Under the pieces are notes generated by a model. That model was not told the DNA's origin. It worked only from the letters and a program-made list of their open reading frames with translations, and did not search any database. Made by a program: the position numbers and the translations under genes. From Pyropia yezoensis (taxonomy: Eukaryota > Rhodophyta > Bangiophyceae > Bangiales > Bangiaceae), in contig CM020619.1 of the NCBI GenBank assembly GCA_009829735.1, positions 24,267,554 to 24,331,553 of the forward strand: a stretch of DNA of 64,000 nt, written 5' to 3'. This document shows positions 1-17,244 of this stretch, one piece after another. The first letter of the stretch is position 1. Every line of letters starts with the position of its first letter.

Positions 1-1555
1 CAGTACGGCGAGTCAAACCGTTGCCCACGGAAGAAGCCCTCCTGAACCCTATCGTACTCGACAGTTTCTCTTGTCATTTGGATAGTGCGCGATATTCATC
101 TGTCCACAGAAACAGCAGTCAGAGATTGCGAAGACGATGAATTAGAGAACAAAAAGCACGATCAGAAAAGCTCTTTGAGCTGCATCGACTGTTTAAAGAA
201 AATCAGGGTCTTGGCGCCGCAAAAAAAAGTCTCTTGCCAGGCACTTCCACTTTGTGTGCATACGTAATACGTAAAAGATGCCCCCGTGTTTTAGGCTAAC
301 GGTGGACTCCATGTAGCTAGGCCGGTCAAGAAAGGGGCGTAAAGACCCCGCAAGTGAACGGTTCGAGCTCAAGCTCGTTCGCAGAGCGCACTGTTTTCTC
401 CCGACACTGAGCTATTGAAGAGAGCGTTGGTATAGAGCATGAAGTGTCCGTTCTTCTCTCGTATGGTATCTTCTTGCTCTTATTGTTCTTGCGGCAGCGC
501 ATTCTGCGGCGATCCAAGTCTCTCCAGATTGCATTTTCCAATGTGAACTTGGTCAAAGGGGGCTACTCTCGGCAAAAAGCCGTTCTCTCGCTACAACGGC
601 GCTTGTTTCCCCCCCCCTGCTGAAGCGCAGAGCAGGTAAGGAAATGTCTGATGTCAGAGCCATTTACGCATCCCTGCCGTGACACGTTCTGCAAACGCGA
701 GACTTCACAGAGTACCGTCACGGGCCGGCAAGAGCTCATCATGCTCAGGAGAGGCGTCGGTTTCGAGGGCCTAGCCGCGCAGAAATTCCCTCAATGCATG
801 ACTTATAGCACTCAGGTGAGAGACACACAAAAACGGAGAGATTGTGAGCTGCGCCTCCCGTTGCTAACAGACGGAGGAAGAGCGACCCCGAATCGGCGGA
901 GTAATGGCCTGTAAAAAAGAACCGCGTCAACCGGCCTAGCTAAATATAATTCATTATGAAATCCACCTTCTGAGTTGGGAACACTTGGCAACCTCCTGTC
1001 CGGTTGACAACCCTAACTTTGTTCCTTAATGGCCATTGGTCGACGGCGGTTGACATTAGATATTTGCTATGTGTTCACCTGAACGCAATGTCGGACAGGT
1101 GTCTGAACAACTCCAAAACTCTATCGTGTGTGGCTGACATAGCGTAGCAAAATCAAGTCTGAATTTGGCCGTGATCTGTGTATGTATCGGATAGTGTGAG
1201 TAAAGGGCCCCACGGCCGCGGCTCCCGGACGGACGACATCGTTGGGCTTGCACAGCGCAAGCCCAGGTGGGGTCCAACTGACACTCGCGGGCCGCCAGTC
1301 CCCATTGCCCATCGACCGGGGGCCCCCACCCTGCGGGGCCCCGGGGACGTGGGCCCCGCCGGGCCCCGCCAAGGGAGCGAGAGGCCCACTGAGAATCGGC
1401 CACCAATCTGCCTGTTGCAACTGGTCCATGGGAAGAACGTCGAACGGGGACAGTGATCAGCACACGACCCGCTGGGGCCAAAAATGGCCAGGTGGGTGGT
1501 ATCCCACTCATATGTGCTGGCCTACCTGTCGTGCACCCCCGGGTGTAAGTATGTA
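1..1555. other. Intergenic, lower-GC left end; no gene seen
   Basis: I see no convincing coding sequence here. Bases 1-1000 are clearly less GC-rich than the rest of the window. Positions about 301-420 match 62841-62960 collinearly (see the repeat entries). Positions 1243-1265 form a perfect 9-bp hairpin with a 5-nt loop, and 1200-1400 is rich in GGGGCCCC-type palindromes. The Tc1 element begins at 1556. Confidence 0.5.
301..420 (+). repeat. Dispersed repeat, copy A (partner at 62841-62960)
   Basis: The stretch beginning GGTGGACTCC at 301 matches GGTGGATTCC at 62841. Both copies continue with AGCTAGGCCGGTCA and then a weaker but gap-free match through a TCGAGCT motif about 65 bases downstream. 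Roughly four of five bases agree over the first 45 positions. It is most likely an old dispersed repeat. No coding capacity is visible in this copy. Confidence 0.55.
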
Positions 1556-1584
1556 CAGTCGGTAAGCAGAAATCATTGCCCGAT
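1556..1584 (+). repeat. Left terminal inverted repeat of the Tc1 element
   Basis: This 29-bp sequence starts CAGTCGGTAA and is identical to the reverse complement of 2860-2888. It is preceded by the TA target dinucleotide. Confidence 0.93.
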
Positions 1585-1649
1585 TTGATCCGAACCTTAA
1601 GTCGATTTATTGTGCACCAAGAAAAACGTTGCCCCATTGGATCCCTCGC

Positions 1650-2684
1650 TCAGTATTTGGTCCCCATCCCCTTGGCGGCAATCACACACCGCACACGGCG
1701 CTTCATCGAATCCACCAGACGGGCAAAGAAGGCGTCAGGGATGGCCTCCCACTCCTCACACAGGACCTTATAGAGGTCCTCCTTGTTCCCGGGCTGCTCC
1801 TCCCGGGCCGCCAGACGGCGCTTGAGCTCGTCCCATGCATTCTCAATCGGGTTGAGGTCTGGGCTCTGGCCTACCCAGGGAAGGCACTTGAACCCGAGCT
1901 GGGCCTTGACGTCGCGGCTGTACTTGGATGCGTGGCATGGGGCGAGGTCCTCCTGCAGCCAGGCGGCGTCAGGCGCCCCAAAATAGGCCACAATGTGATG
2001 GAAGATGGAGTCGCCCAAGACCCCCTCATACTGGGTCGAATTCATGGAGCCCTTGACGAGCACCAGGGGGGTGCGACCACGCGCCGAGAAGCCCCCCCAC
2101 ACCATGACGGACTGCCGGCCGCTTTTGAAGGTAGGTTGGAGACAGGCGGGGGTAAAGCGCTCCCCGGCGCGCCGCCAGACACGAGCGCGCTTGTTGACGG
2201 TGCGCACTTCAAAACTGCTCTCGTCGGTGAAGAGAACCGCCTCCCACTCGGCCCCCCAGTGCTTGTGGGTGCGGGCCCACGCCCGACGCTTGGTTTGGTT
2301 CTTGTCTGACACGAAGGGTTTGCGCGCGGGGATGGCGGACTTGAAGCCCTGCGCGAGCAGGGCGCGCCGCACCGTCCAACGTGAGACGGGCACGGGGCGC
2401 CCACGGCTGAATACCCGAGTCAGCGCGGCGGCCGACAAAAAACGGTTGGCGTTGGCCAGCCGCACAAGAGCGCGCACATCACGGGGGCCCAGAAGAGCCG
2501 GGCGCCCCCGCGTCTCTGGCTGCTTGGCCATACCGTCCTTGCGCGCCTTGGCAGCAAACCAGGAGACACGGGTGACAGGGATGCCGAGGGCGACGGCGAT
2601 GGCTCCGTTGGAATAACGCTTGGTGGCGAGCTCGAAAATGGTGGCCTTCTGGCTGAGGGTGACCGTTGTGCGTTGGGCGACCAT
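1650..2684 (-). CDS. Tc1/mariner-family transposase (344 aa)
   Basis: This transposase cuts and pastes its own element between TA sites. The N-terminal half has two helix-turn-helix regions (about residues 8-48 and 66-112) separated by a GRPR-like RGRPALL motif at about 60-64, the usual bipartite DNA-binding arrangement. The RNase H-like core shows the catalytic triad D154 (FTDESS), D246 (QEDLAPCH) and E281 (SPDLNPIE). There are 34 residues between the second D and the E, the Tc1-type DD34E spacing. The length is normal and the frame is unbroken from ATG to TGA. A TATAAAG box lies about 50 bases upstream of the ATG, inside the element. Nothing in the sequence argues against activity. Confidence 0.95.
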   Translation of the reverse strand: MVAQRTTVTLSQKATIFELATKRYSNGAIAVALGIPVTRVSWFAAKARKDGMAKQPETRGRPALLGPRDVRALVRLANANRFLSAAALTRVFSRGRPVPVSRWTVRRALLAQGFKSAIPARKPFVSDKNQTKRRAWARTHKHWGAEWEAVLFTDESSFEVRTVNKRARVWRRAGERFTPACLQPTFKSGRQSVMVWGGFSARGRTPLVLVKGSMNSTQYEGVLGDSIFHHIVAYFGAPDAAWLQEDLAPCHASKYSRDVKAQLGFKCLPWVGQSPDLNPIENAWDELKRRLAAREEQPGNKEDLYKVLCEEWEAIPDAFFARLVDSMKRRVRCVIAAKGMGTKY

Positions 2685-2732
2685 CGTGCCTGTCGGGAGG
2701 TGGACCAGTGGAGCAGGGCCCCTGGAATGGGA

Positions 2733-2739
2733 CTTTATA
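2733..2739 (-). promoter_or_regulatory. Putative TATA box for the transposase
   Basis: On the minus strand TATAAAG lies about 50 bases upstream of the transposase ATG at 2684, within the element. In DNA this GC-rich such a run is unlikely by chance, but promoter function is inferred. Confidence 0.5.
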
Positions 2740-2859
2740 GCGGCCGGAAGGGCATAAATGGCGCTTCACTGGTCAAAAATCACCCCCCTCCTGATACAGG
2801 ATTCGCCACTCTGAGCGTGTGCCACGGCGAAGTCGGGCCGCCGACAGGCTCGTTTCCGG

Positions 2860-2888
2860 ATCGGGCAATGATTTCTGCTTACCGACTG
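2860..2888 (-). repeat. Right terminal inverted repeat of the Tc1 element
   Basis: This is an exact 29-bp reverse complement of 1556-1584. It is followed by TA and then by two adjacent GTACTGTAC motifs (2888-2896 and 2897-2905). Confidence 0.93.
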
Positions 2889-3687
2889 TACTGTACGTAC
2901 TGTACGCACGCCCAGTCCCCCCCCTCCACCCCCCCTGCTGGCGCCCTCGTGCGTGGGGGGGGAGCGGCGGCAACAAGGTGCCCTCTGCGCCAGCGCACAG
3001 TGACCCCAGCCGTTCCTCACAGGCACGGCCACACCCCCCCCCCACGCCCCCCCCCCCGCAGGAGTGCTGCCCCGTTGCGCCCTGCCTCCCGCCACGGGGC
3101 ACCCGCTGTGCCGGCTCCCGCCATGGGATCATGTTGGGCACCCCCGTCCGACACGCACCTGGAAAAGTCCCTCCGCCGGAGGGGCTCTGCGGCCAGCCAC
3201 GCGACCTGTGGATAGCGCCAGCAAGGATCCTTGTTAGCAGGGGCGCCCGTCGTGCCAGTTCAAGGCCCCCCCCTGCCCTTGCTTATCCTCGTGTGCCTCC
3301 CCCACCACCCAGGAGCCTTTGCTTGATCGTTGCACGACACCCCGTCACCACCGTCCCCCCTCCCACCCCCACCCGGAGGTCCCTCTGCGTCGCAGCGTTT
3401 GCGCCTTCCCCCCCACCTCGCCACCCCCTCCCAGACCCGCACTTTGGCCCGCCCCACCCCACCCACACGCCCTGTGGTGTTCCTCCCACCCCAAGCTGCG
3501 AGGGGGTGTTCCGCGGGGCGGCCGTCGCGCCGCCTTTGGGTGTCTCCCGCTGCGCGCTGCCGTGCGTCCCACCACCGCCACCGCCACCGCTGTTGCCGCC
3601 CCTGTGCTTGCTACCGCTCTCCTTGGCCCCACGTGGAAGAGAGGGGGTTGTGGGGGGGGGTTGGGGGCGGGATCGGAGGGGGGAAGC
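2889..3687. other. Region between the Tc1 element and the NLR-like gene
   Basis: Very C-rich DNA with long C runs. The NLR reading frame is open back to 3319, but there is no in-frame ATG before 3688 and the translated upstream part is Pro/Arg/His-rich without domain character. I read it as promoter, leader or an upstream intron. GTACTGTAC motifs lie at 2888-2905. Confidence 0.4.
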
Positions 3688-3892
3688 ATGGAGGGTGGAG
3701 GCGGGAGGGGTGAGGAGGGGCGGCGTCACAGCGGTCGCCTCCTCGCTACCCTGCGCGGCTCCCACGTGTCGATGAGGGCGGAGGTGGGCTCGGCGCGGCG
3801 CCCATTGAGCATGTCTCGTATGAGGACGGCCTTGCCAGAAGTCCTGAGGGCCTCCAATTCCCGTTTTTTTGGGGGCCCCCGGGACGGCGGCT

Positions 3893-3967
3893 TCGGCAGT
3901 GGCAGCGGCAGCGGCAGCGGCAGCGGCAGCGGCAGCGGCAGCGGCAGCGGCAGCGGCAGCGGCAGCG
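3893..3967 (+). repeat. GGCAGC microsatellite encoding a Gly-Ser linker
   Basis: About a dozen uninterrupted GGCAGC hexamers lie in frame in the NLR-like gene and encode alternating Gly-Ser. The unit is a multiple of three, so length changes keep the frame. Confidence 0.85.
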
Positions 3968-6747
3968 CCGGCGCCGGCGGTGGCGGCAGCGGCCTTCATG
4001 CCGCCGTCGGTCCGTCGAGTTCGGGCACTGCCTGCGGGGTGGGCGGCTCTGCGGGTGGGGCAGGCCCCCACGGGGGTGCAGGCGGGGGCCTCCCCCTCGC
4101 CACCTTTCGGGTGGTGGCGTGTTCGCGCTCTCGCGTGCGAGAGCTGAGAAAGGGGAAGGGCCGCCCCCTCTACGTCGAAGGCCTGCTCGGCCGCAGCCTA
4201 TTCTTGGTGTGGGACGCCCGCCGCAGCAAGCCTTCGGAGACAGTGGATGCCTTTCGCGAGCGCGGCCCCTTTCGTCTCCGCCTGGACAGGGCGGTCGGGG
4301 AGCTGCGGCTGGCGGAGCCTGTCGACGCTGCGGACTTGGGGGTGGCCCACACCCCCCGCCTGTTGGTGGTGAGCGGGGTGGAGGAGAGCAGCGTCCCGGG
4401 AGCCGGCGACCTGGACCCGCTACGGCTGGTGCTTGAGGCGCCCACCGAGGCCGTGAGCACGGCTTGGGTGGCGGCGGGCACCACCCTGCTATGCCCTTGG
4501 ACGGACCTCCTGCAGATGAGCGGCCGCCACGGGGTGGGGCAGCAGGCGGCGGAGGCTGTGCGCGAGATGATGGCGTCTGTGGGGTTGAATCCGCCAGGGG
4601 CAAGCGGCGCAAATGGTGGTGCTGCGTCCAGATTGTTGACAGCAGCGGGGCGACGGCGGATTTTGGAGGCATCCCACTGGCTGCGCCTGCCATCTGCTAC
4701 CGGAACGGCGGGACACCGCGCCATTGCCAAGGCGGCGGACGTGGTGGACGATATCAGCGGTGTGCCGGTGGCAGGGGTGGCGATTCGAATTGGGCTGTTC
4801 CTTGTCCAGGCAACGGCGCTTACTCTGCTGGCCAAAGACCATCCCACCCGCTGCGAGGCCATTATTGGCCAGTGCGAGGATGTGCTGGGATGCGCGCTGG
4901 AGCGCACTCTCCACGCGCTGCAGCTCGATCAGACAGAATTCACGACGGATCTTGTTGAGCAGCTGTGCGACCTCCTCAACCGCGTCGAGGTGGTGCTGGG
5001 GCATGTGGAGAGCTCATTCTTTTCGGGCCGTGTTGCGAGCAAGCTGATGCGTGATGTTCTTGATGGGCGGACTGGGCAGCTGGGCCAGCTGCGTACGGAT
5101 GTGCTGGCCTTGCGCAGCTTTAGCGCCATGGGACACACAATCGACCGTATCGAGCGGTTTCACGCCAACCAGCAGGGCCCCGGTGCGACATACGCCGCTT
5201 CCTCGACGCATCGCATGGACAAGTACGTTGATTGTTTCAAAGCACCCCCCCTGGACGAGCGAGAGTATGTCGCTGGGGAGTCTACGCCTGACCGTGCTGA
5301 GCGAACCCTGATCTGTGCATTAAGAGACTACGTGACGCGGGGGGACGGAGTGGCGCCCCGGCTGGGCATCTGTGCGATTGGTGGCAGCGGGAAGACTACT
5401 GCCTGCGCTGGCGTCGCGTGCTCTTCCTTCGTGCGAGACAATTTTTCAAAGGGGACAGTGTGGATTCAGCTGGACGGCGCAAGCTCCTCAGAGACTTTGC
5501 AGGACGCTGCTATTGCGCTGGTCTACCGCATGAGTGGGCCTGACACTGCCAGGCGGCTGGTGTTGCTGGAAAAGGTCGAGGACGTTTTGGCTGAGGCTGC
5601 GCGGCACATGAAGGAGGTGCCCAGAGCCGAGGCGGCCACGATGATGGTTGTGATTGACGACGTTTACGACAAAAAGCGTGATCTACTGCGGCAGCTGGTG
5701 CGGATCGTGCCACCGGCTACGCCGGTCCTCTTCACGACGCGCTCGGAGTCTGTCGCATCCATGCTGGGCTCCGCAGCACAGGAGGTGAGAATTGACGATT
5801 TACCAAACGAGAGCGCTAGACTGGTGCTGGCCAAGGCGATGGGGAGGGAAGTGGTGGCGGGGGTGGATCCATTTCTCCCCGACGAGGAGTGGGTGGCGCG
5901 GGTGCTGCACCTGGTTAAACGCCACGCGCTGTCGCTGAGGCTTGTTGGCTGTATGATGGCCGAACGAAGTGGCGCGTACGCTGATATCGAGAAAGCCCTC
6001 AGGGAGAAGCAGCTGATGCAGTCCAGCTTTGTTTCCCCCGACGGCGGCGTGAGCCAGAAAGCGTCCGTGCGGGCGACGCTGGACACAAGCCTGGAGCTGC
6101 TCCTCGACGCACCCAGTCAATTGGCCTTTGCGGCGCTGGGGGTCCTGCCCACAGCCGTCAAGGTTGGGGTGCAGGTGGTGTCCCGGGTGTGGCGACTTTG
6201 CCGCGAATCGGTTGCTTCTGGAGAAGACCTGGGAAGTCGTGTCGGTGGTAGTGGCGGCGGAATGATGGCAAATGCTGATGTGAACGGGCTCGTGGACAAG
6301 CTCGTCCGGGCGGGGCTGGTGCGCCGGGCGGTTCACCGTGGCACTATGGATGGCATCATTGTGCACCCAGTTATCGGCGAGTACGCCGAAATCCTCTTAG
6401 GCGACGGCAGCCGTCCCCTGCACAGTCAGTTGATCGACGACTTCATGGCCGACGTGGCCAGTGGCGACGGGGACGAGCGCGGGCGGCGGTCGTACCCGTT
6501 TTGGGAGTCCCACGACGACGCTGACGGCTACTGGTTTGCCAATGTGGCGCGCCACGCGGCAGCTATTCGGGAGATTTCTGCCCTGGCAGCGTTGGTGGAT
6601 AAACGCTGGAAAGCTGTGCGAGTCCGAACCGGCTCTCCGCTGGCCTACCAGGGCGATGTCGAGATTGCCCTCACGTCCCTGTGCTTCTGCGTGGAAAGCG
6701 CGGACCATGAGGTGCGTCAGGTGCCCGCAGTGCATGGCAAAGCCCTC

Positions 6748-9700
6748 ATTGCACTAGGCCACACGTACAGCGAGCGCATGGCCGGGGATAGGGCGGCCAA
6801 CGTGGAGAAGGCGGTGGCGTGCTACGAGCGGGCGCTCGAGGTGAGGACGCGGGAGGGGGCGCCGCTGGAGTAGGCGGCGACGCAAATGAACCTGGGCAAC
6901 GCGTATAGGAACCGCGTGGCCGGGGATAGGGCGGCCAACGTGGAGAAAGCGGTGGCGTGCTACGAGCGGGCGCTCGAGGTGTGGACGCGGGAGGGGGCGC
7001 CGCTGGACTGGGCGAGGACGCAAGTGAACATGGGCACCGCGTACAGCGACCGCGTGGCCGGGGATAGGGCGGCCAACGTGGAGAAGGCGGTGGCGTGCTA
7101 CGAGCGGGCTCTCGAGGTGAGGACGCGGGAGGGGGCGCCGCTGGAGTGGGCGGCGACGCAAATGAACCTGGGCATCGCGTACAGCGACCGCGTGGCCGGG
7201 GATAGGGCGGCCAACGTTGAGAAGGCGGTGGCGTGCTACGAGCGGACGCTCGAGGTGTGGACGCGGGAGGGGGCGCCGCTGGAGTGGGCGGCGACGCAAA
7301 TGAACCTGGGCACTGCGTATAGGAACCGCGTGGCCGGGGATAGGGCGGCCAACGTGGAGAAGGCGGTGGCGTGCTACGAGCGGGCGCTCGAGGTGTGGAC
7401 GCGGGAGGGGGCGCCGCTGGACTGGGCGAGGACGCAAGTGAACATGGGCACCGCGTACAGCGACCGCGTGGCCGGGGATAGGGCGGCCAACGTGGAGAAG
7501 GCGGTGGCGTGCTACGAGCGGGCGCTCGTGGTGTGGACGCGGGAGGGGGCGCCGCTGGAGTGGGCGGCGACGCAAATGAACCTGGGCACTGCGTATAGGA
7601 ACCGCGTGGCCGTGGATAGGGCGGCCAACGTGGAGAAGGCGGTGGCGTGCTACGAGCGGGCGCTCGTGGTGTGGACGCGGGAGGGGGCGCCGCTGGACTG
7701 GGCGATGACGCAAATGAACCTGGGCATCGCGTATAGGAACCGCGTGGCCCGGGATAGGACGGCCAACGTGGAGAAGGCGGTGGCGTGCTACGAGCGGGCG
7801 CTCGAGGTGTGGACGCGGGAGGGGGCGCCGCTGGACTGGGCGAGGACGCAAGTGAACATGGGCACCGCGTACAGCGACCGCGTGGCCGGGGATAGGGCGG
7901 CCAACGTGGAGAAGGCGGTGGCGTGCTACGAGCGGGCGCTCGAGGTGTGGACGCGGGAGGGGGCGCCGCTGGAGTGGGCGGCGACGCAAATGAACCTGGG
8001 CACTGCGTATAGGAACCGCGTGGCCGTGGATAGGGCGGCCAACGTGGAGAAGGCGGTGGCGTGCTACGAGCGGGCGCTCGAGGTGTGGACGCGGGAGGGG
8101 GCGCCGCTGGACTGGGCGAGGACGCAAGTGAACATGGGCACCGCGTACAGCGACCGCGTGGCCGGGGATAGGGCGGCCAACGTGGAGAAGGCGGTGGCGT
8201 GCTACGAGCGGGCGCTCGTGGTGTGGACGCGGGAGGGGGCGCCGCTGGAGTGGGCGGCGACGCAAATGAACCTGGGCACTGCGTATAGGAACCGCGTGGC
8301 CGTGGATAGGGCGGCCAACGTGGAGAAGGCGGTGGCGTGCTACGAGCGGGCGCTCGTGGTGTGGACGCGGGAGGGGGCGCCGCTGGACTGGGCGATGACG
8401 CAAATGAACCTGGGCATCGCGTATAGGAACCGCGTGGCCCGGGATAGGACGGCCAACGTGGAGAAGGCGGTGGCGTGCTACGAGCGGGCGCTCGAGGTGT
8501 GGACGCGGGAGGGGGCGCCGCTGGACTGGGCGAGGACGCAAGTGAACATGGGCACCGCGTACAGCGACCGCGTGGCCGGGGATAGGGCGGCCAACGTGGA
8601 GAAGGCGGTGGCGTGCTACGAGCGGGCGCTCGAGGTGTGGACGCGGGAGGGGGCGCCGCTGGAGTGGGCGGCGACGCAAATGAACCTGGGCACTGCGTAT
8701 AGGAACCGCGTGGCCGTGGAGAGGGCGGCCAACGTGGAGAAGGCGGTGGCGTGCTACGAGCGGGCGCTCGTGGTGTGGACGCGGGAGGGGGCGCCGCTGG
8801 ACTGGGCGAGGACGCAAGTGAACATGGGCACCGCGTACAGCGACCGCGTGGCCGGGGATAGGGCGGCCAACGTGGAGAAGGCGGTGGCGTGCTACGAGCG
8901 GGCGCTCGAGGTGTGGACGCGGGAGGGGGCGCCGCTGGAGTGGGCGGCGACGCAAATGAACCTGGGCACTGCGTATAGAAACCGCGTGGCCGGGGATAGG
9001 GCGGCCAACGTTGAGAAGGCGGTGGCGTGCTACGAACGGACGCTCGAGGTGTGGACGCGGGAGGGGGCGCCGCTGGAGTGGGCGGCGACGCAAATGAACC
9101 TGGGCACTGCGTATAGGAACCGCGTGGCCGGGGATAGGGCGGCCAACGTGGAGAAGGCGGTGGCGTGCTACGAGCGGGCGCTCGAGGTGTGGACGCGGGA
9201 GGGGGCGCCGCTGGACTGGGCGAGGACGCAAGTGAACATGGGCACCGCGTACAGCGACCGCGTGGCCGGGGATAGGGCGGCCAACGTGGAGAAGGCGGTG
9301 GCGTGCTACGAGCGGGCGCTCGTGGTGTGGACGCGGGAGGGGGCGCCGCTGGAGTGGGCGGCGACGCAAATGAACCTGGGCACTGCGTATAGGAACCGCG
9401 TGGCCGTGGATAGGGCGGCCAACGTGGAGAAGGCGGTGGCGTGCTACGAGCGGGCGCTCGTGGTGTGGACGCGGGAGGGGGCGCCGCTGGACTGGGCGAT
9501 GACGCAAATGAACCTGGGCATCGCGTATAGGAACCGCGTGGCCCGGGATAGGACGGCCAACGTGGAGAAGGCGGTGGCGTGCTACGAGCGGGCGCTCGTG
9601 GTGTGGACGCGGGAGGGGGCGCCGCTGGACTGGGCGAGGACGCAAGTGAACATGGGCACCGCGTACAGCGACCGCGTGGCCGGGGATAGGGCGGCCAACG

Positions 9701-11439
9701 TGGAGAAGGCGGTGGCGTGCTACGAGCGGGCTCTCGAGGTGAGGACGCGGGAGGGGGCGCCGCTGGAGTGGGCGGCGACGCAAATGAACCTGGGCATCGC
9801 GTACAGCGACCGCGTGGCCGGGGATAGGGCGGCCAACGTTGAGAAGGCGGTGGCGTGCTACGAGCGGACGCTCGAGGTGTGGACGCGGGAGGGGGCGCCG
9901 CTGGACTGGGCGATGACGCAAATGAACCTGGGCATCGCGTATAGGAACCGCGTGGCCCGGGATAGGACGGCCAACGTGGAGAAGGCGGTGGCGTGCTACG
10001 AGCGGGCGCTCGAGGTGTGGACGCGGGAGGGGGCGCCGCTGGAGTAGGCGGCGACGCAAATGAACCTGGGCAACGCGTATAGGAACCGCGTGGCCGGGGA
10101 TAGGGCGGCCAACGTGGAGAAAGCGGTGGCGTGCTACGAGCGGGCGCTCGAGGTGTGGACGCGGGAGGGGGCGCCGCTGGACTGGGCGAGGACGCAAATG
10201 AACCTGGGCATCGCGTATAGGAACCGCGTGGCCCGGGATAGGACGGCCAACGTGGAGAAGGCGGTGGCGTGCTACGAGCGGGCGCTCGTGGTGTGGACGC
10301 GGGAGGGGGCGCCGCTGGACTGGGCGAGGACGCAAGTGAACATGGGCACCGCGTACAGCGACCGCGTGGCCGGGGATAGGGCGGCCAACGTGGAGAAGGC
10401 GGTGGCGTGCTACGAGCGGGCGCTCGTGGTGTGGACGCGGGAGGGGGCGCCGCTGGAGTGGGCGGCGACGCAAATGAACCTGGGCACTGCGTATAGGAAC
10501 CGCGTGGCCGGGGATAGGGCGGCCAACGTGGAGAAGGCGGTGGCGTGCTACGAGCGGGCGCTCGTGGTGTGGACGCGGGAGGGGGCGCCGCTGGACTGGG
10601 CGATGACGCAAATGAACCTGGGCATCGCGTATAGGAACCGCGTGGCCCGGGATAGGACGGCCAACGTGGAGAAGGCGGTGGCGTGCTACGAGCGGGCGCT
10701 CGAGGTGTGGACGCGGGAGGGGGCGCCGCTGGACTGGGCGAGGACGCAAGTGAACATGGGCGCCGCGTACAGCGACCGCGTGGCCGGGGGTAGGGCGGCC
10801 AACGTGGAGAAGGCGGTGGCGTGCTACGAGCGGGCGCTCGAGGTGTGGACGCGGGAGGGGGCGCCGCTGGAGTGGGCGGCGACGCAAATGAACCTGGGCA
10901 ACGCGTACAGCGACCGCGTGGCCGGGGATAGGGCGGCCAACGTTGAGAAGGCGGTGGCGTGCTACGAGCGGACGCTCGAGGTGAGGACGCGGGAGGGGGC
11001 GCCGCTGGAGTGGGCGGCGACGCAAATGAACCTGGGCATCGCGTACAGCGACCGCGTGGCCGTGGATAGGGCGGCCAACGTGGAGAAGGCGGTGGCGTGC
11101 TACGAGCGGACGCTCGAGGTGAGGACGCGGGAGGGGGCGCCGCTGGAGTGGGCGGCGACGCAAATGAACCTGGGCATCGCGTACAGCGACCGCGTGGCCG
11201 GGGATAGGGCGGCCAACGTGGAGAAGGCGGTGGCGTGCTACGAGCGGGCGCTCGTGGTGTGGACGCGGGAGGGGGCGCCGCTGGACTGGGCGATGACGCA
11301 AATGAACCTGGGCAACGCGTACAGCAACCGCGTGGCCGGGGATAGGGCGGCCAACGTGGAGAAGGCGGTGGCGTGCTACGAGCGGGCGCTCGAGGTGAGG
11401 ACGCGGGAGGGGGCGCCGCTGAAGTGGGCCCTGACCTCC
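6748..11439 (+). repeat. 138-bp tandem repeat array (34 TPR units)
   Basis: Units are spaced exactly 138 bp from 6748 to the last at 11302, with no insertion or deletion, so every unit stays in frame. The 46-residue unit (N-x-G-x-AY, then DRAANVEKA, then CYER, ending EGAPL-W) matches TPR arrays common in cyanobacterial CHAT/TPR proteins. Variation is limited to a few positions (AYRNR or AYSDR, VAGD/VAVD/VARD, LEVW/LVVW/LEVR, DWARTQ/EWAATQ/DWAMTQ). The first unit is the most divergent. Units 7438-8127 and 8128-8817 form a nearly identical five-unit (690-bp) higher-order repeat, and part of the pattern recurs at 9232-9645. Confidence 0.95.
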
Positions 11440-11604
11440 TACAACCTGAGTTTGGCCTTCGAGGACGCGGGGCAGGCGGCACGTGCACTGGCAATGGCCC
11501 GTTCGGTGCAGGAGTCTGGATTGTTTGAGCAAGCCGCACCTGGCCGTGGGGGGCAAATAGAGGTGCTTGTTGCCCGCCTCCAAGCGCAAGTGGCTGAGCC
11601 GTAG

Positions 11605-12179
11605 GCGTGGACGCTGCACCTTCCCGGGCGGTGGCGGGGGCTCCCCTCACGCCTCCCGGCCAGGCGCAGCTGCCTGCATACCCCCACGCCCGGCTGGTGC
11701 ACCGCACGACCTCCCCCGCTCCCCGGCTTGTGTCGGAGCGGAGCCGCGGGGGTGGCGTGTTGGGGGGGGGGGTGGCCGCCTCCCTACGTGGGCGCTTTCG
11801 CCGCTCCCTCCCCCCCCCCCGCCTGCCGCCCCGCATACCCACTTGCCCCCCCCTTCCGTGGCGCGGCAGGAGACTCTTGGCGGCATCGGCTGCCGGCAGC
11901 GGAGGGGAGCTGCGGGGGGGAGGGGGGGGGCCGGCTGCGGTGGGGCAGCGGCGGCGACGCGTGGGTGGCCGCGGGGGGGGGTGGGGTAATGGCGTGGCAG
12001 GGGCGAGGGTGGCGAGGTGGGAGGATGGGTCCGCTGGCGGGGGGCGGACGGGTTGCACGCCGTGCCAGCAGGGGAGGGGGGAGGGGCGACCCCCACTGTT
12101 CGGCATGGGCGGGTGGACAGGCCGGAGGGGATGGGGGGGGGGTGGCCGTCTCCTGCGCTTCTGCAACCTCCCCACCCCC
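11605..12179. other. Intergenic, G/C-run-rich; no gene seen
   Basis: Downstream of the NLR-like gene the DNA is dominated by runs of G and C and by translated Pro/Gly/Arg-rich frames on both strands. I see no conserved protein here. Confidence 0.4.
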
Positions 12180-12518
12180 CCCCACCACGTGCTGCCTGAC
12201 ATCCTCGACGAATTGCGGGCGTTGGTGACGGCGTTTTGGGCCGACCACGGCGACGTCTTAACGGCCTACTGGGAGGGGCTGCCGACGGAAGGCCGCCGCG
12301 ACCTCCTCCTCCGCGTCGTCCTGGCCATGCCCGCCTGCTTTTCTGTGCACCTGCAGCGGCTTGGGCGAATGATGAGGTGGACCCACTTTCGAATGCAGCC
12401 ACTTACATACGTGTTGTGCACTGGGGCCTTTGAATCTGTACTGGTGGGGCACCTGACCGCGCACCTTGTCGGCGTGGTGTGTTTAGCGGGCGGAGCACAT
12501 GCATGCCTTTGCCTTTAG
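12180..12518 (+). CDS. Possible orphan exon, unrecognised protein
   Basis: One frame here looks like real protein against a low-complexity background: an amphipathic stretch beginning LPDILDELRALVTAFWADHG, followed by AYWEGLPTEGRRDLLLRVVLAMP. Segments of the type W-GLP-RR-LLLR-P recur in helical C-terminal regions of some algal and fungal MYND-finger proteins, but I cannot identify this one. It ends at TAG near 12516. No start codon or acceptor is convincing, so only part of a gene may be visible, or a decayed copy. Confidence 0.3.
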   Translation, partial: PHHVLPDILDELRALVTAFWADHGDVLTAYWEGLPTEGRRDLLLRVVLAMPACFSVHLQRLGRMMRWTHFRMQPLTYVLCTGAFESVLVGHLTAHLVGVVCLAGGAHACLCL

Positions 12519-13782: not shown

Positions 13783-15577
13783 TCACAAGCCCGTGGCAAC
13801 GAAATTCGCCCGCCACGTTGCGCGGATGTCGTACTGCAGCAAGCTCCCGCACATCCCGTCGTGGACGCCAATAAACAAAGACTGGCCGTCGGGGGTAAAG
13901 CAGGCGCCGCCAACCTCGCCAAACAGGTCCACGGTCTGCTTGCCGTCGCCGACAACCCCCCGGGACACGTCGTAGAGCGACACAAAGTCCTTGGGCTCCG
14001 CCACCGCCAGCAAGCGGCCGCAGCTAGAGAAGCGCACCGAGCGGACGGGGCCGACGCGGGCAGGCAGGACCGCCAGGCAAGGGGTGGTGGTCGAGCGGGC
14101 TTGACGGCCGCCGGTGCCGGCGCGACCACCCCCCAGGGTGCGCACATCCCACACTCGGGCGGTCCTGTCCTGGGAGCCAGTCGCGAAAAGGTGGCCTCCC
14201 GGATGCCAAGCGGTCGCAAAAGCAAACGTGGTGTGGCCGTGCAGTACTGCGACTACCCGCGAGCGCGGCACGGCGCCGCTCGACGGCGCTGCCACCCGCA
14301 TGTCCAACAACAGGCAGTCCTTGTCGTCGCCCGCCACAGCCAGCAGGTGGTCCCCGCGGGGCTGCCGTGACGCGTGGTTCACCGCCCACCCGCAGCGGGT
14401 GTGGTTGACAACGTCAAAGGTGGCGCCGTCGTACTCGCGGACGCCGCAATCATTGGAGGAGGTGACGACGCGGAGGCCGTGAGAGGCGTCCTCGTGCAGG
14501 TCCACCGCGTTGGTGATGGACTGCTCATCGGTAGAGGTGTGGCCGTTGAAGAGCAGCCGCCCAGTACGGGCATCGACGGCGACGAGCTCCGAGTGCAGTC
14601 CACCCGCGACAAGCAGCCCGCCCGCAGCCATAATGGTCGACACCTGCACTACAGGCAGCAGCGGATCGGCGCCCGACAGATCCAGCACCACCCGCCGCCG
14701 CGCCAGCACCGAGTCCCAGTGCACAATCTGTTGATCCTGCTGTAGGACGTACACGTCGTGCGGGGTCGGCGCCCACACCAGGTTGCGCAGCTGAAAGTGC
14801 ATGATGGAGCACCGCACCCGCCGGGTACAGTAGCGGAAGCGTGCCACGTCCAGCGGCGCCATGGGCCCAGCCGCCTCCTCCATATACCCGCCGGGGGGGG
14901 GGGCCTCCCCAACCTCTGCAACAGGCGGCTCGAGGAGCCGCTCCTGGCGAAACTGGGCACGGCTGCGGCCCAGGATGTGCCACGGGATGCCCTGCACGTC
15001 CCGCCCCGCGGCCACATGCGCGGCCGTGATATCCGAGCTTGGGAGCCACTGCAGAGGCGGGGGAGGGGCAGGGAGTGGAGGGGGGGGAGGGGGCGGGGGA
15101 GCGTCCGGAAGCGGGACGAGCAGGTCCTGCACAGCCCAAGGCGCCAACCCCTGCTCCTCGGCCGCCAAGGGGGCCACCGCCAGAGGGGGGGGCACGGGGA
15201 GCGGATGCAACAGCGCCGGGGGGGGTAGAGGAGCGGCTGCGGCGGCTGCGGCGGCTGCCGCCGCACCGGCAGGTGGCAGCGGTGGCGCCTCTGCCGCGGC
15301 AGCCGCCGCCGCCACGGCGGGTGGGGGTACGGGCACGAGCAGCGCGGCCAGCCCAAACGGCCCGTGCTCCAGGACGAGCCCCACCCCCGCCGCCGCCGCC
15401 GCCGGTACCGCCACACCCGGTGGGGGTGCCAACGCCGCCACTGGCGGCAGCGCCCCGGGCGCTGGCACCGGCAGCTGCACAACGGGCGGGGGCGCGACGG
15501 GCGGCGGGGGGGCAGGGGGGATACTCGCCGGTGGCAGTGGCGGCTGGACCGCCGCCTCCCCACCAGGGGGTGACGCT

Positions 15578-15626
<49 letters not shown>

Positions 15627-16026
15627 GCAGTCGTGGTGGAGGACTCGGCGGCCGTCCAAGGGGCAAGGGTGCGGGGGGAGGCGTCGCGGACGATCCACCG
15701 GCCGCCGTGTCAGCGGCGCCCCGAGCCTCCCCCCCGCGCGCCGACCCCTCCCCCCCACCGTCGTCGCCGACGCCGCCACTGCTGCCACCGTCGCCATCGC
15801 GCCCGCGCGACGGCTCTGTGGCGCTGCCCAGATGACCGCTGCTGTCGCCACCGTCGACGGCAATGCGGCCAGCACCGGGAGGCGCGCCCACCCTGTCGGC
15901 GACGGCAGCCGCTGCCCCTCCCGCTACCCTCGCCGCCCCCACCGGGCCACCGTCAGACGACGGGAACGCGGCCAACGACGCGGGCGCTCCCCCGCCCCCC
16001 CACCCTCCACCCCCGCTGCCACCCAT
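13783..16026 (-). CDS. WD40-repeat protein, C2A9.03 family
   Basis: The C-terminal 440 residues or so match the uncharacterised eukaryotic WD40 family typified by S. pombe SPAC2A9.03 and several Arabidopsis transducin-like proteins. Diagnostic stretches are DVQGIPW followed by R-QFRQERL, MHFQLRNLVWAPT-HDVYVLQ, VSTIMAAGGLLVAGG, ITNAVDLHEDASHGLRVVTS, FAFATAWHPGGHLFATGSQD with ARVWDVR, PVRSVRFSSCGRLLAVAEP-DFVSLYD, and DLFGEVGGACFTPDGQSLFIGV. The upstream 300 residues are Pro/Gly/Ala-rich. The only in-frame ATG upstream of the conserved part is at 16026 (747 aa), but the frame stays open to about 17136, so a spliced first exon is possible. The molecular role is unknown; WD40 propellers usually scaffold complexes. 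Confidence 0.85.
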
Positions 16027-16619
16027 CAATGCAACTCGGGGGGTGCGGACCGGCGGGGGGGACCCCGCCGGCCGCAGCCGCTTGCCCCGGGATTGCCGCC
16101 CAGGCCGGCCAACGGGCACCGCCGCAGCCGCGGTCGCCGCGGCCGCACCCGTGGCCGCTGGCGCTGTGGCGGTCGCCCTCCCAGACAGGGGCGGCGCGAC
16201 GACGCTGCGAGGCGCCGCTGACAGGCCGACGGCGACAGGACCTCCCCCCCCTCCACCACCAGCCTCGGCGACCAGCACACGATCGGTGTGGTACCCAGCC
16301 GCCGCCCTGCCCCCCCATAGTGGTGGTGACGCACCAGTCCCTCCCGGGGCCCACCCGCCGGGCGCCCGCCGGTGGTGCCACCGCCAATGGTCGTACGCGT
16401 CCGCCGTGTGGTCGGCCGCCGCGGCTGCCGCCACCGCTACCGCCGCCGCCGCCGCCGCCGCCGCTACGGCACCGCCCGTGGACGCCGCCGCCGCTACGCC
16501 AGACAGGCGGCAGCCACCACTGACACGCGCGGTGGGGACAGGGGGGGATGGCACCCAGCCGCCGTGGCCAGGCGCGTCGCCGCTCGACCCGCCGGTGCGA
16601 GACGTGGACCCTACCGCGC

Positions 16620-17050
16620 CGCCCCCGTCGCCGCCGCTGCCACCGTCGCCGCCGCCCCTGCCGCCGCCGCCGTCGCCACCGCCGTCGCCGCCACCGTCGC
16701 CGCCGCCACCGCCGTTGCCGCCACCGCCGCCGCCACCGCCGGTGCCACCGCCGCCACCGCCGGTGCCGCCGCCGCCGCCGCCACCGTCGCCGCTCCCACC
16801 ACCACCGCCGCCGCCGCCACCGCCACCGCCTCCACCACCGTCGCCGCCGCCACCAGCACCACCAGCACCACTCCTCGCAGCGGGGCAACCGCCATCGCGC
16901 GACGCATCCCCGCCACCACCACTACCGCCACCACCACCACCGCCACCGCCACAACCAACACCGCCGCCGCTGCCACCGCCGCCACCGCCGCCGCCGCCGC
17001 CGCCGCTACCACCGCCGCCACCGCCGCCACCGCCGCCACCGCCACGGTCA
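16620..17050. repeat. CCG/CCA trinucleotide tract
   Basis: About 430 bases are almost entirely CCN triplets. The plus strand would encode Pro, Thr or His/Arg runs and the minus strand Gly or Trp/Arg runs, depending on frame. Confidence 0.8.
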
Positions 17051-17244
17051 CGCGCCTCCCCCCCCCCACGTCCAGCAGCACCCCCCCCCCCCCCCCCCCG
17101 CACGCGCTCGCGCGCGCACGCGGCCGCCGCCGCCACCCGCGTCGGCGCCGCCGCACCCCGCCGGGGCGGTTGGCGGCAAGGCGCCCCCCCCCCGCCCCCG
17201 CCGAGGCACCAGCGGTGACCGCGACGGCGACAGTGACGGTGGCA

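Follow-up and report, generated by a model that had tools for sequence, protein, structure and literature searches.

An NLR-type receptor gene with an interrupted array of near-identical TPR units in the red alga Pyropia yezoensis

Organization of the receptor locus

The stretch of DNA analyzed here, referred to as the window, comprises 64,000 nucleotides of contig CM020619.1 (assembly GCA_009829735.1, positions 24,267,554 to 24,331,553 of the forward strand) from Pyropia yezoensis, a red alga and thus an algal host, as had been presumed in a preliminary description made from the letters alone. It harbors a gene of the NLR type, in which a candidate effector region and an NB-ARC domain are followed by a long array of tetratricopeptide repeats (TPR), and in which the reading frame is interrupted within this array. 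The following features were identified.

3688..6870, + strand: uninterrupted portion of the receptor's reading frame, beginning with the ATG that comes next after the stop at 3235 and running up to the first TAG
4090..4659, + strand: conserved N-terminal region of about 190 residues, common to five NB-ARC genes
4660..5223, + strand: helical bundle region, candidate effector (single-sequence structure model, four paralogs)
4777..4833, + strand: most hydrophobic stretch of the bundle by Kyte-Doolittle, VAIRIGLFLVQATALTLLA, candidate membrane-inserting helix
5224..6732, + strand: NB-ARC together with the segment leading to the repeats (PF00931, paralog identity)
5380-5400, + strand: P-loop GGSGKTT, read in the translation
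5647-5661, + strand: Walker B VVIDD, read in the translation
5731-5745, + strand: FTTRS, read in the translation
6361-6369, + strand: VHP at the MHD position, read in the translation
6733..11424, + strand: TPR array with 34 units, each 46 residues (138 bp) long, in 22 distinct DNA types
6871..6873, + strand: in-frame TAG, first codon of unit 2, at a TGG position
10045..10047, + strand: in-frame TAG, first codon of unit 25, a copy of unit 2
11425..11604, + strand: cap at the C-terminal end of the array, followed by the terminal TAG (11602-11604)

The NB-ARC assignment was borne out by a Pfam match to PF00931 (42.4 bits, with a cut-off of 23.5) and by the presence of P-loop and Walker B. All four short motifs, as well as the helical block VVDDISGVPVAGVAIRIG starting at about 4738, were found where the preliminary description had placed them. 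The MHD-like motif reads VHP or LHP in the subfamily described below, with His and Pro invariant in five out of five members and Pro in place of Asp. The tandem array, detected at 6764-11429 as 33.8 copies of 138 bp with 93% matches and 0% indels, reads as the 34 units of 46 residues previously counted, and TPR_12 of Pfam was matched on 10060-11604.

From 3238 to 6870 the frame stays open (3.6 kb), and over 4090-6870 it contains no stops, compared to between 11 and 26 in each of the other five frames. Together with the domain order that recurs in four paralogs, this exceeds what chance would give. The frame had been taken to run as one gene from 3688 to 11604, with the two internal TAGs overlooked. 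The first codon of the units is TGG in 31 of the 34, CAT in unit 1 and TAG in units 2 and 25. The latter two units are identical (0 differences out of 138) and are both enclosed in a 179-nt tract found unchanged at 6845-7023 and 10019-10197. Most simply, the stop would have arisen by a single base change and then been duplicated by the array's own copying. Because of the TAG at 6871, the product from the ATG at 3688 ends at 6870, after the first TPR unit; as assembled, the gene encodes the bundle, NB-ARC and a single TPR unit.

Two ways of bypassing the stops were considered. A 33-nt GT-AG stretch, read by eye, ends at the first TAG, but this is implausibly short for an intron, and splicing would cost a TPR 11 residues; removal of the stop in this manner is improbable. 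An alternative genetic code was rejected, as it would have to account for TAGs that replace W, Q and K in three different arrays, and as four of 12 genes checked use TAG for their terminal stop.

The NB-ARC gene family and its broken arrays

Searching the genome (107.5 Mb in 11 contigs), we found NB-ARC at no fewer than 32 places, among which the window ranks 21st by score. Four other places, designated L047, L048, L049 and L036, have the same order of N-terminal region, bundle, NB-ARC and 46-residue TPRs, and their NB regions are 46-55% identical to that of the window. Complete units number 11 in both L047 and L048, eight in L049 (plus a truncated ninth) and six in L036. Among the candidates scored, the 46-residue unit is confined to these five subfamily loci (27 out of 27 matches, E up to 0.001). 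N-terminal domain, NB-ARC and repeats are joined in one open frame in L036, which is not the case in the window.

Other NB-ARC genes carry different sensors. L006 combines NB-ARC with WD40 repeats, both over their cut-offs, and L013 appears to be of the same class, having NB-ARC plus propeller matches that remain below the cut-off. A trypsin-like domain, NB-ARC and 42-residue TPRs were found together in L040. Arrays of 126-bp units (16-27 units, 78-94% matches) occur in the NB-ARC genes L037, L038, L040 and L041. Beside the NLR paralog of L049, a retrotransposon reverse transcriptase with RNase H is located at 1-1914 on the + strand. Outside the genome, 50 pattern matches to the NB region in viral contigs included no relatives, and a single plasmid record matched, at 23% identity.

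Interrupted arrays were sought in the five subfamily members and in six 126-bp arrays of at least 11 units, the latter from ten further NB-ARC loci. Out of these 11 arrays, three have a mid-array TAG: besides the TGG position in the window, it is found at a glutamine position in unit 8 of L047 and at a lysine position in L041. The recurrence of TAG calls for no special explanation, as 60-75% of the one-step nonsense changes there yield this codon. Stops in L042 and L045, situated at most 40 bases from the array end, were excluded from this count, and an ambiguous frame shift was observed at the end of unit 11 in L048.

Variation among the repeat units

Only complete units were compared (n=33, 10, 9, 7 and 5 for the window, L047, L048, L049 and L036, respectively). 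The first unit of each array was set aside, as were unit 11 of L048 (shifted) and unit 9 of L049 (truncated). The mean number of differences per 138 bases is lowest in the window (7.9), followed by L047 (14.3), L049 (18.1), L048 (26.1) and L036 (44.6). Correspondingly, the mean residue identity between units is 87.4% in the window and 83.0, 79.5, 75.0 and 57.8% in the paralogs, in the same order. The 85% threshold of high internal conservation is reached by the window array alone among the five. Its 22 distinct types among 34 units are accompanied by exact repeats of 693, 562, 467 and 306 nt.

The register of the 46-residue unit was set by the TPR motif residues L7, G8 and Y11. In TPRs generally, residues at the canonical positions 2, 5, 9, 12, 13, 33 and 34 vary most and are directed towards the ligand groove (PMC1261162). 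The five of these in helix A (2, 5, 9, 12 and 13) correspond to unit positions 3, 6, 10, 13 and 14, while 33 and 34 are unmappable in the longer unit. At the helix-A positions nonsynonymous differences are denser in all five arrays, namely 7.0-fold in the window (permutation p 1.5e-4), 3.1-fold in L047 (p 0.018), 2.4-fold in L048 (p 0.0095), 4.6-fold in L049 (p 0.00025) and 2.3-fold in L036 (p 0.0010). The four paralogs are the fairer evidence, as the variable positions of the window were known before the test. When the register was rotated through all 46 offsets as a control, the motif-based offset ranked 1, 3, 2, 1 and 2 for the window, L047, L048, L049 and L036, respectively. Over the whole unit, pN/pS is 1.34 in the window and 0.43-0.64 in the paralogs.

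The array also differs in composition, with a GC content at third codon positions of 0.93, compared to 0.71-0.72 in NB-ARC and the bundle; this excess fits biased conversion or a different origin. On the - strand, an antisense frame of 1818 codons (6746-12202) covers the array. This frame is probably an artefact, being a mirror image of the GC-rich repeats.

The N-terminal region and the helical bundle

Among the subfamily NB-ARC genes, the N-terminal region (4090-4659) is 34-43% identical to that of the window, and it is also present in L050, L051 and fragments. No Pfam family was identified in the window sequence of this region, and a profile of it gave no matches among solved structures at E up to 10. 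A PH-like fold, suggested by eye only, was not pursued further; the single-sequence model (pLDDT, i.e. predicted local distance difference test, of 38) was unusable.

The bundle is 32-41% identical to the window in the four paralogs. Its single-sequence model (pLDDT 60.7, predicted template modeling score 0.51) is, at low confidence, a four-helix bundle with an extra preceding helix, the predicted helices lying at about 4705-4755, 4765-4830, 4843-4926, 4942-5025 and 5041-5172. The hydrophobic stretch VAIRIGLFLVQATALTLLA has a Kyte-Doolittle mean of 1.93 over 19 residues. Of the MLKL-type helical region formerly assigned here, the helical bundle is thereby retained as a prediction, while no kinship to MLKL or HeLo was detected by Pfam profiles: the window bundle matched no family, and the five members together gave three unrelated ones with weak E-values and no MLKL, HeLo or RPW8 superfamily profile (E up to 10, at the sensitivity of hmmscan). 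Nor could we confirm the rule that SGIP-x-KGVAG blocks mark such domains in fungal NLRs, as the word-initial string "gvag" occurs 0 times in one paper dealing with the effector domains of these proteins (PMC9815663).

The bundle profile found no relative among solved structures (best E 0.34, HEXIM1), and Foldseek on the low-confidence model gave a best match with E 1.0. VIA-align on this model had no MLKL or HeLo among the 50 entries listed, which is no evidence of difference. A comparison by hhalign with the helical N-terminal domain of the WD40-type NLRs resulted in a score of 26.9 (probability 9, P 0.0037) with five sequences and 21.7 (probability 1.9) with eight, where the maximum in 40 column shuffles was 20.8; controls with a reversed profile and with the trypsin-type N-terminal regions gave E 0.29 each. 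A common origin of the two domains is thus above controls and too weak to claim.

The bundle was found at three further places outside the NB-ARC list. In L050 and L051, N-terminal region and bundle precede a different C-terminal part, while L052 is a broken fragment. As the two regions thereby occur also in genes with no detected NB-ARC, they form a module that can be reused, which is what one would expect from an effector. No Pfam family was found in L050, the one of the two that was scanned. In L050 (gene at 1540-4446, + strand), two copies of a VLYN-type motif appear to be present in the C-terminal part; L051 is on the - strand. The N-termini in L047, L048, L050 and L051 begin alike, with a short stretch in which basic residues follow a Cys (e.g. 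AACLPCSRR and ACVRPGRRP) and which might serve as a lipid anchor. This pattern was not found in the window at 2501-4200.

Bacterial relatives of the repeat unit

When four TPR units were searched against plasmids, 31 records matched, the seven best with 47-56% identity, including Deinococcus (56%), Bradyrhizobium (55%) and Nostoc (48%). In prokaryote genomes, a relative is encoded at 30 out of 102 pattern matches; 19 of these 30 loci are labelled as cyanobacterial, among them the first eight listed. The repeat is accordingly of the cyanobacterial type that had been recognized from its 46-residue length. CHAT was found in all ten of the C-terminal parts that were scanned among the 30 loci, which, together with the matching units, makes the sensor one of the bacterial CHAT-TPR type. 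The window itself has no CHAT match in 10060-11604, which extends to the terminal stop. Of the proposed resemblance to STAND/CHAT proteins, the CHAT half is hence supported and the STAND half is not, as neither the P-loop pattern nor the subfamily NB profile matched in any of the 30 prokaryote open reading frames, seven of which run off their locus. The union of NB-ARC with 46-residue TPRs was not seen in bacteria, as searched with two short peptide patterns which rarer unions may escape. One CHAT-TPR gene with the 46-residue unit (L061) is situated on a contig labelled as a Methanosarcina metagenome-assembled genome.

Neighboring genes

Near the receptor gene, at 1653-2684 on the - strand, is a Tc1/mariner-type transposase (HTH_Tnp_Tc3_2 and DDE_3, both over the cut-off). 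Convergent with the receptor, an open frame at 13783-17136 on the - strand has WD40 repeats at its end (13786-15300 scanned) and a low-complexity upstream part.

Interpretation

We favor, with moderate confidence, the reading that the window gene belongs to a hypervariable five-gene subfamily of NLR-type (STAND) receptors, and that the window copy is null or truncated. In the assembled strain it is most likely an allele of that kind, in a gene whose 34-unit array looks fast-evolving. A complete member could act in immunity or allorecognition as follows. The concave face of the long TPR superhelix would bind a ligand, and binding would free the NB-ARC switch, with nucleotide exchange and oligomerization. 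Once clustered, the N-terminal bundles might target membranes or partners, the simplest mode being insertion of the hydrophobic helix, as in HeLo, MLKL and CC bundles. Near-identical 138-bp units would recombine by unequal exchange or conversion, which would expand, shrink and homogenize the array and reshuffle its recognition residues. The same process would have copied the nonsense unit, so that the window copy would encode at most NB-ARC and one TPR. What the data show directly is the domain content, how homogeneous the array is, the accumulation of differences at recognition positions and the duplication of the stop; ligand binding, oligomerization, membrane action, the immune or allorecognition role and the exchange process are inferred, the receptor mechanism by analogy with other NLRs.

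A number of observations weigh against this reading. L047 and L048 score higher in another register (best offset 40). Counted against a per-base consensus, the window array has 28 distinct single-base variants, 20 of them missense, seven silent and one nonsense, which matches what is expected under no selection (71.5, 24.9 and 3.6%, respectively). Recognition codons are richer in silent differences, too, in the window array (0.188 vs 0.036), L036, L048 and L049, but not in L047. For this reason selection is not proven, and the clustering may stem in part from a mixture of older unit types rather than from selection. As to the putative membrane action of the bundle, its hydropathy of 1.93 is little above that of the best stretch in the NB region of the window (1.70), and in L049 the NB region has a higher best value (1.85) than the bundle (1.33). 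An NB-ARC and TPR gene reported to be upregulated 2.31-fold in severe red rot (PMC6928737, Table 1) could not be tied to the window locus.

The neutral substitution classes would suit a plain decaying relic, i.e. a family that is losing function and an array that is drifting. So would the mid-array TAGs in three of 11 arrays, the L048 frame shift and the broken fragment L052. We regard this as possible but unlikely, as a 3.6-kb frame has stayed open with its NB-ARC motifs kept, differences are position-specific in five arrays, and L036 reads through all six of its units.

Indels are the common error of long reads, and the array contains 0% of them. This argues against a full-length working receptor in which both TAGs are assembly or sequencing errors, as do the TAGs at other codons within the L047 and L041 arrays. 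Such errors appear improbable to us, even if the frame is open up to the array, a long near-identical array is hard to polish, and the Pyropia yezoensis assembly was built on PacBio reads (PMC7423979). It is also quite improbable that the bundle is a true MLKL/HeLo homologue fused to NB-ARC and TPRs. The model does predict an extra preceding helix such as the fungal Goodbye/BaMLKL domains possess (PMC9815663), but this model is of low confidence, no related Pfam family was found in the five members, and the profile search yielded no solved relative. Lastly, there is very little likelihood that the gene functions in its truncated form, as a helper NLR made up of the bundle, NB-ARC and one TPR: the stop does fall at the first unit boundary, and the frame upstream of it is intact, but it is shared with unit 25, and the paralogs have six (L036), seven (L047), eight (L049) and about 11 (L048) units in frame before any stop.

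Starting from the hypervariable subfamily with a null or truncated window copy, a bolder proposal may be made, which we think improbable as a whole. Red algae would have a self-reshuffling receptor family, where recombination between near-identical units both re-sorts recognition residues and brings nonsense units in or takes them out, giving rise to lineage-specific sets of receptors that are on or off, and the N-terminal module would be a red-algal membrane-active death effector of an origin independent of MLKL. The loci named here allow direct measurement of allelic turnover, null alleles and disease response in the nori crop.

Comparison with known systems

Near-identical NLR repeats with variable recognition sites are best known in fungi, and their occurrence in a red alga suggests that this strategy recurs in distant multicellular lineages. 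Fungal NLRs of high internal conservation, defined by repeats more than 85% identical over at least 100 residues (PMC4986451), resemble the window in their near-identical repeats, in variation on the concave face, as reported for a fungal TPR NLR (PMC4986451), and in the stops in the repeat of one strain (PMC12222747). The last case is the nearest precedent for the interrupted window array: in the Podospora strain Wa87, the sixth repeat of het-d contains two read-supported stops, tentatively a non-reactive allele type (PMC12222747). The systems differ in lineage; moreover, the N-terminal domain of the window is unmatched by the tested profiles, a single genome is considered here, and the paralog arrays are below 85%.

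The bacterial, mostly cyanobacterial, CHAT-TPR proteins share the 46-residue unit with the window, at up to 56% identity, but have a C-terminal CHAT (10 out of 10) and no NB-ARC was seen in 30 open reading frames. In the window, this sensor type of bacterial CHAT proteins is joined to a eukaryotic NB-ARC.

Among algae, brown-algal NB-ARC-TPR genes shuffle TPR exons (Zambounis 2012 and Teng 2023, via PMC11378527). Shuffled TPR units would thereby be common to both, whereas they are separate exons in the brown algae and contiguous in the DNA here. For Pyropia yezoensis itself, genes with NB-ARC and TPR, NB-ARC and WD40, and trypsin, NB-ARC and TPR have been tabulated (PMC6928737, Table 1). The same paper also covers Porphyra genes with NB-ARC and TPR, the domain pair of the window, and with NB-ARC and WD40. 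These are treated as single-domain R candidates, and the accessible portion of that paper does not mention the bundle, the near-identical array, the recognition positions or the stops. In the open-licence literature, no report was found of the bundle module, of the array of near-identical units or of the stops that interrupt it. The combination of NB-ARC and TPR was thus already known from both Pyropia yezoensis and brown algae, while the bundle module, the near-identical array and its interruption are apparently new.

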